Below are positions 21,395-27,425 of a stretch of 64,000 nt of DNA, piece after piece. The notes below the pieces were generated by a model. That model did not search any database and was not told the DNA's origin. It saw nothing but the letters and a program-made list of their open reading frames with translations. Where the stretch lies: contig JANQRZ010000003.1 in the NCBI GenBank assembly GCA_028284265.1, positions 1 to 64,000 on the forward strand, read 5' to 3'. The DNA is from Rhodothermales bacterium (GTDB taxonomy: Bacteria; Bacteroidota; Rhodothermia; Rhodothermales; JANQRZ01). A program made the position numbers and the translations under genes. Position 1 is the first letter of the stretch. Every line of letters starts with the position of its first letter.

Positions 21395-22381
21395 ATGGAC
21401 GCCCTGTTTGCCACGGGTGGCGTGCTGGTCATCTTCCTGATCGTCGCGCTCCTGATCGTCTTTTTTTATTTCATTCCGCTTGGCCTGTGGGTCTCGGCGA
21501 TCACCGCGGGCGTCCGGGTCCGGCTGACGGAGCTAATCGGGATGCGACTGCGGAAGGTGCCGCCATCGGCCATCATCGGCCCGCTCATCACGGCACGTAA
21601 GGCAGGCATTGATGTGACGGCCAGTCAACTGGAAACGCACTTCTTGGCCCGAGGAAACGTCCGCAACACGGTCCAAGCCTTGATTTCCGCTGACAAGGCT
21701 AACATCGACCTTCCGTTCCAGCAGGCGACGGCCATCGACCTCGCGGGACGCGATGTGTTCGAGGCCGTGCAGGTATCGGTCAATCCCAAGGTCATCGAGA
21801 CGCCGCCGATTTCGGCCATCGCGAAGGACGGTATTCAGGTCCGCGCCATCGCCCGCGTGACGGTCCGCGCCAACATCAACCAACTCGTCGGTGGGGCGGG
21901 GGAGGAGACGATTATCGCCCGCGTCGGTGAGGGGATCGTCTCGACGATTGGATCGTCGGATACGCACCTGATGGTGCTCGAAAACCCAGACAACATCTCG
22001 AAGACGGTGCTCGCGAAGGGTCTCGACAGCGGGACGGCGTTCGAGATTCTCTCTATTGATATCGCTGATGTGGATGTGGGCGAGAACATTGGGGCGAAGC
22101 TCCAGACTGACCAAGCCGAGGCTGACCTCCAAGTGGCCCGTGCCAAGGCTGAGGAACGTCGCGCCGCAGCCGTTGCCGCCGAGCAGGAACAGCGCGCCGC
22201 GGTACAGGAGCAGCGTGCCCGACTCGTCGCTGCTGAAGCCGAAATCCCGCAGGCGATGGCGGAGGCGTTCCGCAAGGGCAACCTCGGCGTGATGGACTAC
22301 TACAACCTTCGCAACGTTGAGGCCGACACGCAGATGCGTCGCTCGATTGGTGGCGATGAAGACCCTGCTGCCGGGGCCTAG
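21395..22381 (+). CDS. floA: Flotillin-like protein FloA
   Basis: 328 residues, the normal FloA length. A hydrophobic N-terminal hairpin (about residues 5-35, with [19 protein letters not shown]) anchors it to the inner membrane. The SPFH region includes [28 protein letters not shown] and [25 protein letters not shown]-like sequence. The C terminus is an Ala/Glu/Arg-rich coiled coil. FloA organises ordered membrane microdomains. A terminator follows; the PspA operon, another membrane-integrity system, lies 3 kb away. Confidence 0.93.
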
Positions 22382-22448: not shown

Positions 22449-22994
22449 ATGTCTTTCGATTCTCGTGTCACTCGCGTCACCGCTTTCGCCTCGCTTGGTA
22501 TCCTCAGTGCTACGCAAGACCTCGTCCGATCCGTTTTGCCGTCGCTGACGGATGCAGCCAGCCCGGAACTCGTCGCCGAGGAGACGCTCGCCCTCGTAGC
22601 GACGGTGACGGCGCGGGCTGCCGAGGTTGGGCTGCAGGGTACGCTAGCCGAGGTTGTGGGAGCGGCGCTCTTGGAGACGCCGTTCCTCTACCACGACTAT
22701 TTGCTCGGCGGTCAACTCGTCGCCGAAGGTAGCGAAGGTGAGGTGGAGGTGGACCAGAGCGTCTACGAGCGACTTGGGCGGAAGATGGAGTTCTACGGTG
22801 TCCACTTCCCGGTCGGTCAGTTTCCCGGCCCGCGCGCGCTGGCCGATAAGCTGCCGCTTTGGATGGGGCGCATCTCGCCGCCGAAGCTTCCGACCACACC
22901 CGGCGAGCGCCTCGGCGAGACCGGCCTCGTAGACCTCCTCACGACACATCTCCGCCTCGTGCTTGCCTTCGCCCAACGTGTTGCCAGCGAGTAG
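22449..22994 (+). CDS. Hypothetical protein
   Basis: 181 residues, not recognised. The sequence is mostly helical in appearance: an N-terminal region with repeated Leu/Ala/Val segments (LVAEETLALVATVTARAAEVG), a middle region with TPFLYHDYLLGGQLVAEG and VYERLGRKMEFYGVHFP, and a Leu-rich end. No signal peptide or clear membrane helix. It begins 7 nt past the floA terminator and is convergent with the CorC-like gene. Confidence 0.7.
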   Translation: MSFDSRVTRVTAFASLGILSATQDLVRSVLPSLTDAASPELVAEETLALVATVTARAAEVGLQGTLAEVVGAALLETPFLYHDYLLGGQLVAEGSEGEVEVDQSVYERLGRKMEFYGVHFPVGQFPGPRALADKLPLWMGRISPPKLPTTPGERLGETGLVDLLTTHLRLVLAFAQRVASE

Positions 22995-22996
22995 TG

Positions 22997-24286
22997 CTAG
23001 AGTGCTCCGGTTTCCAGTCGCCCCGGCGCGTCGCGGATGATCCGGACGGTCTCGACACGATTGGCCGATGCCTTCAAGATCATCACCCGGTAGCCGTCGA
23101 TCTCAAACTCCTCACGCTCCTCGGGGATAGAAGAGAGGCGATCGAGTACGAGGCCAGCGATGGTCTCATAATCGCCTTCGGGGAGACTGAGGCCGTAGTT
23201 GGCATTGAGTGCCTCGACCTCGGCGCGGCCGCTGACAAGGAAGGTGTGGTCGTTGACTTGGCGGATCACTTCGTCCTCCGCGTCGAACTCGTCGCGGATG
23301 TCACCGAACAACTCTTCGAGCAAATCTTCCACGGTGATGAGTCCTGCCGTGCCGCCATACTCGTCGATCACGATGACCATCCCTATGCCGGTTTCGAGGA
23401 ACTCATAGAGCAGGTCTTTGGCGCGCTTCGCCTCGGGCACGAACGTCACCTCGCGGACGATGTCGCTGAGTTGCTTCGGCTGCTGGAACAGGTCGTGCGC
23501 CACGACGATGCCAACGATGTGGTCTACGTTCTCCCGGTAGACCGGCAGTCGGGAGAAGCCCGTCTCGACGAACCGTGCGCGAGCCTCGGCGAGTGTCGCG
23601 CCTTCGTCCACAGCCTCGACATCCGTGCGCGGGACCATCGAGTCCTTGACCCGGAGATTCCGTAGCTCGAACACGTTGGAGAGGATCTCGCTCTCCTCCT
23701 CGTCGAGGTCGAGCGTCCCTGCCTCGCGACTTTCGCGGACAATGGCTTCATAGTCGCTGCGGAGGAACTGCTGGAAGCTCTGCGCCTCCACGCCCGTCAG
23801 CTTGACGAGCAGCGAACTCGCCCACCCGGCGACTTTGATGACCGGTAGAAAAAGGTAGTACGTAAGCTTGAGCGGGAGTGCCGCGGCGAAGACCACCTGA
23901 TCGGCAGGTTCGCGGAAGAGCGACTTCGGGATGATCTCGCCGAAGATGAGGACGATGGTCGAGGCGATAATCGTCTGGAGGACGAGAACGAGGCCCTCCA
24001 CCGCTGCGTCCGGTCCGAGGAGGCTATGCGAGAAGGCACGCAGCGGCTCGTCGAGGGCGAGCGTCATCAGCGCCGAGTAGAGCACGAGCGCGATGTTGTT
24101 GCCGACGAGCGTGGTCGTCAGAAACTTAGCCGGTTCGCGGATGAACTCGCGCACGAGCCGCCCAATGAATCCCTCGCGATGGGCACGTACCTCAGCCTTG
24201 AGCCGATTCGCCGTCACGAACGCGATCTCCGAGCCGGAGAAGAACGCGCTCAGGACGAGCATCAGGGCGATGAGGGCGATCTCCAT
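22997..24286 (-). CDS. CorC/HlyC (CNNM)-type transporter-associated membrane protein
   Basis: 429 residues from the ATG giving MEIALIALMLVLSAFFSGSEIAF, the usual DUF21/CNNM start. Four hydrophobic segments fill the first roughly 170 residues. A CBS pair follows (MVPRTDVEAVDEGATLAEAR, RLPVYRENVDHIVGIVVAHDLF), then the CorC_HlyC domain with EYGGTAGLITVEDLLEELFGDI. The family is linked to Mg/Co efflux or membrane ion homeostasis. An in-frame upstream ATG would translate an octamer repeat and is disfavoured. Confidence 0.92.
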   Translation of the reverse strand: MEIALIALMLVLSAFFSGSEIAFVTANRLKAEVRAHREGFIGRLVREFIREPAKFLTTTLVGNNIALVLYSALMTLALDEPLRAFSHSLLGPDAAVEGLVLVLQTIIASTIVLIFGEIIPKSLFREPADQVVFAAALPLKLTYYLFLPVIKVAGWASSLLVKLTGVEAQSFQQFLRSDYEAIVRESREAGTLDLDEEESEILSNVFELRNLRVKDSMVPRTDVEAVDEGATLAEARARFVETGFSRLPVYRENVDHIVGIVVAHDLFQQPKQLSDIVREVTFVPEAKRAKDLLYEFLETGIGMVIVIDEYGGTAGLITVEDLLEELFGDIRDEFDAEDEVIRQVNDHTFLVSGRAEVEALNANYGLSLPEGDYETIAGLVLDRLSSIPEEREEFEIDGYRVMILKASANRVETVRIIRDAPGRLETGAL

Positions 24287-24292
24287 GGGGGT

Positions 24293-24365
24293 AATTGGGT
24301 GAATCGCTGATTGACTGATTCTGGTGTCATACTCACCCAACCAGTAGATCAGCCAGTCGCTCAAT
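24293..24365 (-). repeat. Octamer-unit inverted repeat before the CorC-like start codon
   Basis: On the plus strand the units run ATTGGGTG, AATCGCTG, ATTGACTG, ATTCTGGT in one arm and CTCACCCA, ACCAGTAG, ATCAGCCA, GTCGCTCA in the other, complementary around a short centre. It ends 6 nt before the chosen start codon. It shares CCCAACCAGT and CTGATTGA-type units with the element before the glycosyltransferase gene, but in opposite orientation relative to the gene. Confidence 0.8.
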
Positions 24366-24369
24366 AAAA

Positions 24370-25167
24370 TTAGCGTCCGCTGAACTCAGGCTTTTGCTTG
24401 TTGAGGAAGGCGTGGACGCCTTCTTGGAAATCCTCCGTCCCGCACGCTTGCCCGAAAAGCGCAGCCTCCATCTGCAAGCCCTGCGCCTGCGGCAAGTCTA
24501 CGGAGCGCAGCGCGTTCAGCGCCATCGCCACGGCCAGCGGTGCCTTCGAGACAATCGTCCCGACGATTTCTTGCGCTTTGGCAAGGAGGTCGCTGCTTGG
24601 TGTGACGTGGTTGACGAGGCCGATGGCGTGGGCGCGCTCCGCCGTGATGCGGTCACCAGTCAGAATCATCTCGGTGGCGAGGCCCTGACCGACAAGGCGC
24701 GGGAGGCGCTGCGTGCCGCCATAGCCGGGGATCAGCCCGAGGCCGACTTCCGGCAAGCCGAACTGCGCGTTCTCGCTTGCTACCCGAAGGTGGCAGGCGA
24801 GGGCCAGCTCGCACCCGCCGCCGAGCGCGTAGCCATTGACCGCCGCCACGACAGGTTTGGGTGAGTTCTCGATGCTGGTGAGGATGGCCTGCCCGCGTAG
24901 CGCAAACCGGTGGCCTTCGAGTGCGTCGAGGTCGGTGAACTCGGCGATGTCGGCTCCGGCGGCGAAGGCTTTCTCGCCGCTGCCCGTCAGGACTACGCCG
25001 CGCACGCGCTCGTCAGACCGGGTCTGGCGGAAGGCGCGCTGGAGGTCGGCGAGGACTTGTGTGTTGATCGCGTTCAGCTTGTCGGGCCGGTTGAGTGTGA
25101 TGACAGCGATGCCATCGGCGTCCACGTTGTAGAGGAGCGTATCGAAGGGGCTAGCGGGAGCTTCCAT
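24370..25167 (-). CDS. Enoyl-CoA hydratase/isomerase family protein
   Basis: 265 residues, the usual crotonase length. ITLNRPDKLNAINTQVL, the oxyanion-hole segment AFAAGADIAEF, and NGYALGGGCELALACHLRVASENAQFGLPEVGLGLIPGYGGTQRLPR-type sequence are diagnostic, including the two Glu positions of hydratases. Likely role is beta-oxidation or butyryl-CoA type metabolism in the cytosol; no other fatty-acid gene is adjacent. Confidence 0.94.
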   Translation of the reverse strand: MEAPASPFDTLLYNVDADGIAVITLNRPDKLNAINTQVLADLQRAFRQTRSDERVRGVVLTGSGEKAFAAGADIAEFTDLDALEGHRFALRGQAILTSIENSPKPVVAAVNGYALGGGCELALACHLRVASENAQFGLPEVGLGLIPGYGGTQRLPRLVGQGLATEMILTGDRITAERAHAIGLVNHVTPSSDLLAKAQEIVGTIVSKAPLAVAMALNALRSVDLPQAQGLQMEAALFGQACGTEDFQEGVHAFLNKQKPEFSGR

Positions 25168-25233: not shown

Positions 25234-26085
25234 TCAGTTACGCAATCGATCTCGCTTGGCAACGGTGTCGGTGGACGTCGGGTCCTCGAACATGTCTAGA
25301 TCGTCCAACAAGCTCGTCGTCGGCGCGAACACATCTTCGATCTGCTCGATGGACGCTTGCGTCTCCTCAACTTCGCTGACGAGAGTGTCGAGCTGGAAGG
25401 ATATCTCCTCGGGGTTGCGCATCGTGAGCGACTGCTCATGGATGTACTTCGTCACGTCCTCGATGGTCTCTAGCTGGGCCTCGATGACGGCGAGGTTCTC
25501 GTGTGCCTTCTTGAACTTGACGAGCCGCTTTTCGAGGATGTCGAGCCGCTTCTGCTTGATCTGCTGGACCTTCGGCGGGTCGTCTGTCATCTCGCCACGC
25601 AACTGCGCCATTGCGTTGACGACCTCGTTCTCGGTTGCCTGCTGGGCGAAGCGCTCGTACCGTTCTTTCTGCTGGAGCATGTTGAGGTATGAGTCGAGCA
25701 GGTCGTCGATCTTCTTGAGGTGCGATTCGAGCAGCCCCTGCGAGGCGTAGGACATCTTCTCGTAGTTCTCCCGGACCGCCTTTTCGATGTTGCGGAAGCG
25801 AATGTAGCGCTTCTGGCTGCTCTTGGTGAGTTGGCGGAAGACCTCCTTCTCCGTCGGCGGCTTGTTGCGCTCGGCCATCTTGCGCGACCGGACGACACGG
25901 CGGAAGCGCTCCTGACGCGGCATCATGCCGAGGTAGAGCAATTCGAGCGCAGCGGCGAAGAGAAGCACGAAGTTGGCGATTCCGGTTCCCGTGAGGACGA
26001 ACGCCGTCACCATCGCCATGATGAGGAACACGAGGTTCCACGGGCTGAGAAACGCTTCTTTGGTGTAGTTAATCGGCTCGCTCAT
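25234..26085 (-). CDS. Membrane-anchored coiled-coil protein of the pspA operon
   Basis: 283 residues, no recognised family. Two hydrophobic segments lie near the N terminus (LVFLIMAMVTAFVLTGTG and FVLLFAAALELLYLGMM), followed by about 220 residues of charged helix, likely coiled coil in the cytosol (LLESHLKKIDDLLDSYLNML, KRLVKFKKAHENLAVIEAQL). It ends with an acidic LDDLDMFEDPTS segment. It is the third gene after pspA, 8 nt from the middle gene. A membrane partner or scaffold for PspA-like rods is inferred from context. Confidence 0.8.
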   Translation of the reverse strand: MSEPINYTKEAFLSPWNLVFLIMAMVTAFVLTGTGIANFVLLFAAALELLYLGMMPRQERFRRVVRSRKMAERNKPPTEKEVFRQLTKSSQKRYIRFRNIEKAVRENYEKMSYASQGLLESHLKKIDDLLDSYLNMLQQKERYERFAQQATENEVVNAMAQLRGEMTDDPPKVQQIKQKRLDILEKRLVKFKKAHENLAVIEAQLETIEDVTKYIHEQSLTMRNPEEISFQLDTLVSEVEETQASIEQIEDVFAPTTSLLDDLDMFEDPTSTDTVAKRDRLRN

Positions 26086-26093
26086 GGGCCGCG

Positions 26094-26636
26094 TCAGTCC
26101 CTCGTCTGTTGGTCACGCCCGAAGCGGCCAATCGAGCGGGCGGGCGGAGCATCCGGCTCGTCGGCTTGATCGGTGTCGGTGTCTTGGCTTTCTCGGGTGC
26201 CGGGGCCGATGGTTTTGGCCGAAGGCGGTGCAGGCGCTTCATCCGGGGTGGTGTCCTGCTGCTTTGTCTCGGCGACAGGTTCCTGCACATCGCCGAGCAT
26301 CTGGGTCTTCATCTGCTGGACGAGGTCGGCAGCGGCATTCTTCTGGCGCTCGGCTTCGAGGCGGGTCATCTCCTCACGATCTGCCTCTTGCTTGGCGGCT
26401 TCGTCGAGGGCTTCCATCGCAAGCTCATAACGCGCCTCGGAGGTGATGTTCTTCTCCGTGATCTTGCGTAGTGCTTCCTCGTGGGTTGCATCAAGCGCGG
26501 ACGTGTCGAGACTCTGGAGTGCCCCTAGGAGGCCTTGCTTGCGCTTGGCCTCGCGGAGCTGCTGCTTGAGTGCGCGGACCTTGCGGAGGTGAGCTTTTTC
26601 CTCCTCCTTGATCCGGTTGAATTCGTCGCGGTCCAT
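26094..26636 (-). CDS. Half-length PspA-like paralogue
   Basis: 180 residues. Residues about 36-115 can be aligned by eye with residues about 150-220 of the neighbouring PspA: LDATHEEALRKITE against VDQTHDEMLNRINE, then EARYELAMEALD against EARMELALDSID, and AADLVQQMK against AAELVKQFK. The N-terminal amphipathic helix and long hairpin of PspA are missing. The last roughly 60 residues are Pro/Asp/Thr-rich and disordered in appearance. It could correspond to the small PspA-associated proteins (PspAA) reported next to PspA in other phyla, but this is not certain. Confidence 0.75.
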   Translation of the reverse strand: MDRDEFNRIKEEEKAHLRKVRALKQQLREAKRKQGLLGALQSLDTSALDATHEEALRKITEKNITSEARYELAMEALDEAAKQEADREEMTRLEAERQKNAAADLVQQMKTQMLGDVQEPVAETKQQDTTPDEAPAPPSAKTIGPGTRESQDTDTDQADEPDAPPARSIGRFGRDQQTRD

Positions 26637-26648
26637 AGGGAAAGCTCC

Positions 26649-27425
26649 TTACACCGAGTCGCCAGAGGAGGTCCGCTCACGGCCTGCCTGCCCAGCGGTC
26701 TTCTCGATCTCTTCCGGCTCGGGGATCGAAAGCTCCGGCTCGGCGGTAGCGGCGGCAGGTTCGGCCATGCCCATTTCGAGCTTGAACTGCTTGACAAGTT
26801 CGGCAGCCTGAATCTCCTGCGCGTCCTCCTCAATCTGCATCGACTCGGTGTCGATGGAGTCGAGGGCGAGTTCCATGCGCGCTTCTTGCTTGGCCGTCTG
26901 CTCATTGATGCGGTTGAGCATCTCGTCGTGCGTCTGGTCGACGCCCGCAACCTCGAACTGCTCCAGCGTGTCGGCGATTTTGGCCTGCCACTTGGCGCGC
27001 TCGTGGGCGCGGAGGGCTTCCTTGGCCTCGCTGATCTTCTTCTCGCGCTCGCGCATGAACGCCTTCTTGACTTGGAGCGCTTTCTCGTAGGCCTGTTCGG
27101 CGTAGCTCAGTTGCTCGGCGGTGCGGGCTTGGGCCTCCTTGGTTTGCTGAAGCTGAAGGGCATAGCGCTGGGCGATGTCGTCGCGTCCCGCCTGGATGGC
27201 AGCCTTGATTTTCGCCGTGAGGTTCTGCAGTTCCGCCGTGTACTTCTTATGCTCTTTCTGGAGCAGCATCGCGTTGGCCTTCACCGTGGCGATGTTCTCG
27301 TTCATCTTCGGCACCTGATCGTTCAACTCGCGCATATTCTGCTCGAGGATCAGGCGTGGATCTTCCATCGCGGAGATGGCACCGCCGAAGAGGGATTTAA
27401 TGAGTCGCGTAAATCGCTTCCACAT
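26649..27425 (-). CDS. pspA: Phage shock protein A (PspA/IM30/Vipp1 family)
   Basis: 258 residues. The start MWKRFTRLIKSLFGGAISAMEDPRLILEQNMRELND matches the amphipathic membrane-binding helix and conserved EDP region of PspA. A long coiled-coil hairpin follows (about residues 40-150), then the conserved C-terminal helices. The last about 40 residues are an added Ala/Glu/Pro tail. PspA proteins form ESCRT-III-like rods that protect and remodel the inner membrane. No PspF-like regulator is adjacent; it heads a three-gene operon. Confidence 0.94.
   Translation of the reverse strand: MWKRFTRLIKSLFGGAISAMEDPRLILEQNMRELNDQVPKMNENIATVKANAMLLQKEHKKYTAELQNLTAKIKAAIQAGRDDIAQRYALQLQQTKEAQARTAEQLSYAEQAYEKALQVKKAFMREREKKISEAKEALRAHERAKWQAKIADTLEQFEVAGVDQTHDEMLNRINEQTAKQEARMELALDSIDTESMQIEEDAQEIQAAELVKQFKLEMGMAEPAAATAEPELSIPEPEEIEKTAGQAGRERTSSGDSV

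Follow-up and report, generated by a model that had tools for sequence, protein, structure and literature searches.

In E. coli, PspA relays a stress signal together with PspF. PspA and Snf7 co-occur in conserved gene neighbourhoods, and one of these, in Bacteroidetes (CBH24266.1), adds a third gene whose coiled-coil product recalls PspA (Ravi et al. 2024, PMC11237479). Some bacterial PspA genes have next to them the gene of a double-AAA ATPase whose N-terminal copy is inactive, and Snf7 homologues bearing transmembrane segments also exist (accessions AEY64321.1 and OGG56892.1) (Ravi et al. 2024, PMC11237479). CBH24266.1 belongs to the accession series of Salinibacter ruber M8, of which CBH24765 and CBH24767 are proteins (PMC3989265), and its neighbourhood is therefore very probably the locus described here, as found in that strain. 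A first-pass annotation had called this locus undescribed; that holds in part, since the neighbourhood and the PspA-linked double-AAA ATPase each appear in single sentences of Ravi et al. (PMC11237479).

The window analysed (the whole stretch of DNA, 64,000 nucleotides) comes from a member of the Rhodothermales with a genome of 3.69 Mb, whose named relatives include Rhodothermaceae, Rubricoccaceae and Salinibacter. Rhodothermia are salt- and heat-loving bacteria. The genes of the locus are the following:

26649..27425, minus strand: gene A, PspA/IM30 family, 258 aa (Pfam PF04012, E 4.5e-15)
26094..26636, minus strand: gene B, half-PspA paralogue, 180 aa (hhalign against A)
25234..26085, minus strand: gene C, membrane protein, 283 aa (hydropathy and conservation)
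25918..26043, minus strand: the two hydrophobic segments of C, at about residues 15-56 (hydropathy)
24370..25167, minus strand: ech, enoyl-CoA hydratase gene (Pfam ECH_1), next downstream of C
22997..24364, minus strand: corC, CorC/CNNM-type membrane protein (Pfam CNNM, CBS and CorC_HlyC)
21395..22381, plus strand: floA, SPFH/flotillin-like (Pfam FloA, E 2.5e-159)

The genes A, B and C follow one another in this order on the minus strand, separated by 12 bases (A-B) and 8 bases (B-C), and the three open reading frames of the PspA operon annotated at first pass were thus all found. Among 72 named loci, ech was kept as a neighbour in 41 and corC in 52. The floA gene reported near the trio is real, and it lies near the trio in 37/72 loci, several of these loci ending at contig ends; being convergent and not universal, it was not adopted as a member of the system. 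Also convergent to the trio, on the opposite strand, is hyp181 (181 aa, 22449-22994, plus strand), which lies near corC/floA in 41/72 loci and has no Pfam family.

Gene A encodes a PspA, of the ESCRT-III superfamily. It scored 56.3 bits against PspA_IM30 (curated cut-off 33.9), matched Vipp1/PspA chains of the PDB and is conserved in the order. This PspA is divergent, as the majority of full-length copies from the rest of the phylum reach 114-187 bits. Its layout comprises an N-terminal amphipathic-type helix, a long hairpin, helices 4-5 and a disordered tail.

Gene B encodes a paralogue of part of PspA and is not itself a PspA, judging from the alignments. BLASTP aligned A and B with 31% identity over 136 aa (E 9e-11), and their profiles (33-34 sequences each) aligned over A128-258, up to the end of A, with 99.5% hhalign probability (E 7.4e-23). 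Passing through the conserved helix-5 region, which reads ..RAxELVKQFKLEMG in A and ..RAxxLVRQMKxxxG in B, the profile alignment continues as far as the terminal KTIGR. Kinship with the C-terminal third of PspA had been proposed; the homology was borne out and its extent was not, the matched part being really half of PspA (residues ~128-258), tail included. Set against the helices of PspA/Vipp1, B covers the end of helix 3, then helices 4 and 5, the linker and the tail. The N-terminal membrane helix is missing, as had been proposed, and so is the helix 1-2 hairpin; this, together with the match to A128-258 only, is why B does not count as a full PspA. The B model consists of helices 3-42 and 45-115 followed by a disordered tail, with block means of 86-98 pLDDT through residue 110 and a low pTM (0.39). 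PspA_IM30 was absent among the Pfam families listed for 33 B members, B had no usable match in Pfam and NCBIfam, and neither its profile against the PDB nor its model in Foldseek returned anything credible.

A tree built from the shared region placed the 81 B sequences together on one side of a branch with a support of 1.0, with no A among them; as the root is arbitrary and the outgroup PspA (from an outlier genome in another class, G364) lies on the B side, this is a separate grouping and not a date. Such a grouping apparently fits a single origin of B. Mean column identity was 35% in B and 73% in A, and B thus diverges much faster than A. This rate, and the loss of B in one family (see below), are what would be expected if B were a functionless leftover of a tandem pspA duplication; as B is open and in place throughout the class, with conserved N-terminal and tail residues, we find that reading hardly credible. 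Residues K10, E13, K14, H16 and L17 are invariant near the N-terminus in the B alignment, and the first 14 residues fall outside the PspA-aligned part. B might accordingly be read as acting in signalling or as an adaptor, by sequestering PspA or relaying stress, with no direct role in rod length: its N-terminal residues, among the most conserved and partly outside the PspA-aligned part, may bind another partner. This seems distinctly unlikely to us, as no regulator gene was seen recurring beside the trio and B keeps the helices for polymer contact.

Gene C encodes a protein with the sequence features of a membrane anchor made of a transmembrane hairpin and a long, putatively cytosolic coiled coil, in line with the two-TM coiled-coil protein that had been proposed. 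Helices are predicted at residues 15-30 and 35-57, with long helices after them, and the two hydrophobic segments (about residues 11-33 and 35-57) are followed by the basic RQERFRRVVRSRK, which is cytosolic by the positive-inside rule. C was found in 77/77 good genomes of the order, with an identity of 48-92% between relatives. In one genome (G171, L099:3041-3939), the C gene is split between two frames that overlap, probably owing to a frameshift or an assembly error. No homology between C and A or B was detectable (hhalign C-A 0.3%), and C matched no family in Pfam and NCBIfam. Pfam Snf7 matched 1/31 C members, at E 0.011, and C is not assigned to Snf7 by sequence. The C model, built from a shallow alignment, reached a pTM of 0.59, and Foldseek returned Vipp1 and CdvB at E ~1.4-1.5 and nothing below E 0.1; the C profile found nothing credible in the PDB. 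By the main text of Ravi et al., their "Snf7" may be either C or B.

The order A-B-C was the rule across the 72 named loci and 20 loci of the wider phylum, and the three genes are therefore conserved neighbours through the class, as the first-pass annotation supposed. B was present in 65 loci of the order and 17 of the class (a first B search also matches PspA, and its tally of 108/114 was set aside as evidence for B). A was directly followed by C, without B, in five loci of the order, all from one family (L136, L137, L138, L143 and L184); these are nested within B-bearing lineages on the C tree, which indicates that B was lost there. Two loci of another family of the class (L093 and L100) also lack B; they lie at the base of the class with weak branch support, and from the tree loss and original absence cannot be told apart. 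The nested family without B keeps A, C and D, the AAA+ ATPase described below. A and C can thus be maintained together in the absence of B, which may be better seen as a modulator than as a core part.

A and B share a common end, [KR][TS][ILMVF]G, with an R or K after it in most members of the order, while the linkers before it are variable and otherwise unalignable. The motif lies in the last 25 residues of A in 62/69 loci of the order and 19/19 of the class, and in those of B in 64/65 and 14/17, respectively, lying slightly further in in the other B proteins. No C protein carries it in its last 25 residues. In the window it occurs as follows:

26691..26702, minus strand: degenerate motif KTAG in the tail of A, residues 242-245 (intact and KTIG-type in most relatives)
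26205..26216, minus strand: first motif copy KTIG in the tail of B, residues 141-144 (B has two copies where A lacks the motif)
26127..26138, minus strand: second motif copy RSIG in the tail of B, residues 167-170 (G170 and R171 are invariant in the B alignment)

Two copies were carried by B in 13/13 loci without the motif in A (these include several cases of one genome listed under two locus identifiers), compared to 10/98 where A has it. The window is one such case, with KTAG in A and KTIG plus RSIG in B. On the C tree, the losses in A amount to about two events, and for this reason compensation between A and B, as read from these sequences, is only suggestive.

Chance occurrence of the tail motif was considered and rejected: of the genome-wide [ED]KTIG matches, those read outside A and B (40 loci) were not real tails but lay in folded proteins (for example FtsA-like, isocitrate dehydrogenase) or in spurious frames, bar one DinB-like tail. 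The latter belongs to a 247 aa open reading frame (L253) ending in DEKTIGSMPPEA, and is the single further tail with part of the motif. One recurrent exception was the tails of DUF4342, a family unrelated to PspA. The DUF4342 protein of the host genome (L212, G000:C14:264144-264454, outside the window) ends in EKTIGK; among its relatives, KTMGR and KTVGK occur in part of family f11 and DKTIG inside a longer tail in family f2, and the other DUF4342 members read lack the motif. The window's family, f11 and f2 are among the lineages where A lost or weakened the motif. A search for another protein family with the motif found none.

The locus had been described as a three-part module, and this is probably incomplete, as an AAA+ ATPase (D) co-occurs with C without exception in our sample and shares its cluster in sister lineages. 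In the host genome, D lies outside the window (G000:C16:298492-300285). Its C-terminal AAA domain, the only one that Pfam recognises, contains a single Walker A (343) and a single Walker B (396), and no Walker A occurs earlier in the protein; by inference from the double-AAA ATPases of Ravi et al., an AAA fold without a P-loop may precede this domain. Pfam found no MIT domain in D, which scored 39 bits against the CdvC model (cut-off 650) and best against CDC48/FtsH models; D is thus not classed as a Vps4.

Of 296 genomes of the phylum, 75 had C, and exactly these 75 had D, while PspA was matched in 125 of the 296, about 50 of which lack both C and D. A D relative was present in 13/13 class genomes first tested. 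Outside the order, D lies ~2-3 kb from C on the same contig in 40/43 genomes of the class (from the coordinates of both searches, compared by hand), and five regions that were read have the order deoA-A-B-C-ech-corC-D (in one, L304, B was read by homology and is overlapped by another open reading frame). D is away from the cluster in 31/31 sampled Rhodothermales genomes, the host included. As the shared distribution is mostly that of one class plus one outlier, it represents few independent C-D events.

That outlier, the genome in another class mentioned above, encodes a C relative (98.5% by hhalign) with no relatives in 97 other genomes of its class. Its C relative is followed by a D relative and then by a coiled-coil gene, with no ech or corC between C and D; on another contig, a second, near-identical version of the coiled-coil gene stands before pspA, so that this operon is pieced together from two contigs. 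This genome has D, yet its PspA is without the tail motif. The same genome has a second C-like copy beside an efflux-type operon (L278:269-1183), 46% identical to the first, and a long SPFH-like (flotillin-type) gene (L275:1659-3632) ~10 kb upstream of the C-like/AAA+ genes.

In sister lineages of the class, ech and corC sit between C and D, and D might be linked to ech-corC instead of PspA, its nearness to A-B-C being incidental. We judge this very unlikely, since C is directly followed by D in the outlier genome, with neither gene in between, and D persists with C where the trio has no adjoining ech/corC (Salinibacter-type loci).

Taken together, we put at even chances the proposal that the cluster provides the polymer and the anchor for an ESCRT-III/Vps4-like system of membrane remodelling in bacteria. 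The homology and order of A and B, the identical distribution of C and D, the position of D near C and the shared tail motif support reading these genes as a module, as do the genes of the outlier genome, the two-copy B, the loss of B with A, C and D kept, and the domain swap known from Vipp1 and CHMP1B, in which a subunit's helix 5 docks on the hairpin tip of a second subunit (PMC8281802). Counted against it are the position of D elsewhere in the order, the lack of an MIT domain, the outlier PspA without the motif and the few independent events. In the proposed mechanism, A would polymerise on the inner membrane, where C would anchor or nucleate it, and B would join the A polymer through the helix-5/hairpin contact. 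Without a hairpin for the next subunit, B would limit or end growth, and it would add tail motifs. D would recognise the tails of A and B, as Vps4 does MIM tails, and pull the subunits out. For B, an end-capping or length-limiting role, close to the cap or regulator supposed at first pass, is favoured by analogy, as its helices 4-5 could occupy the site with no hairpin to offer. This role and the recruitment of the ATPase by the tails are both tentative, and each of them we would sooner doubt than accept.

The main rival of ATPase recruitment is recruitment of the tails to C: the motif would serve to attach A and B to C, or to anionic lipid, instead of D, and B would be an extra tether and not a cap. 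C adjoins A in every lineage, A keeps the motif where B is missing, and basic residues follow the motif; moreover, C and D are equal in distribution, and co-occurrence cannot choose between them. The conserved non-basic T, I/V/L and G nevertheless fit a specific pocket better than a charge effect, and we consider docking on C or lipid rather unlikely. A fuller version of the proposal with D as the reader of the tails, towards which we are somewhat sceptical as a whole, is that Rhodothermia have a complete dedicated ESCRT-III/ATPase machine, in which D reads the KTIGR tail of both PspA-type subunits, B ends or remodels the polymer, C is the TM-hairpin anchor, and the contact between the tail and D is a counterpart, of separate origin, of the MIM-Vps4 interaction.

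A class with a PspA-linked ATPase and anchor that are invariable in our sample, a conserved tail motif and a naturally truncated subunit would allow this question to be tested directly. Two species of the group, Rhodothermus marinus and Salinibacter ruber, can be cultivated.

Compared with known systems, the locus shares with E. coli PspFABC PspA as the effector; however, the genes inspected around the trio included no recognisable PspF, PspB or PspC, and the partners are B, C and D. With archaeal and eukaryotic ESCRT-III/Vps4 it shares an AAA+ ATPase, short C-terminal motifs and a polymer protein of the ESCRT-III superfamily, together with a paralogue of that protein; by contrast, D is not a Vps4 according to the libraries, which found no MIT domain in it. 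To our knowledge, KTIGR is not a known MIM. The Bacteroidetes locus of Ravi et al. likewise has PspA, a gene called Snf7 and a third coiled-coil gene, whereas their main text gives for it no C-terminal half-PspA, tail motif, class-wide distribution or ATPase link. Their double-AAA/PspA association resembles the outlier genome, with its C relative, AAA+ gene, coiled coil, PspA and a solute-binding protein with a LysM-like end. To that arrangement, as far as it is set out in their main text, the Rhodothermia add B and the KTIGR tails, and in the Rhodothermales the ATPase gene lies outside the cluster.
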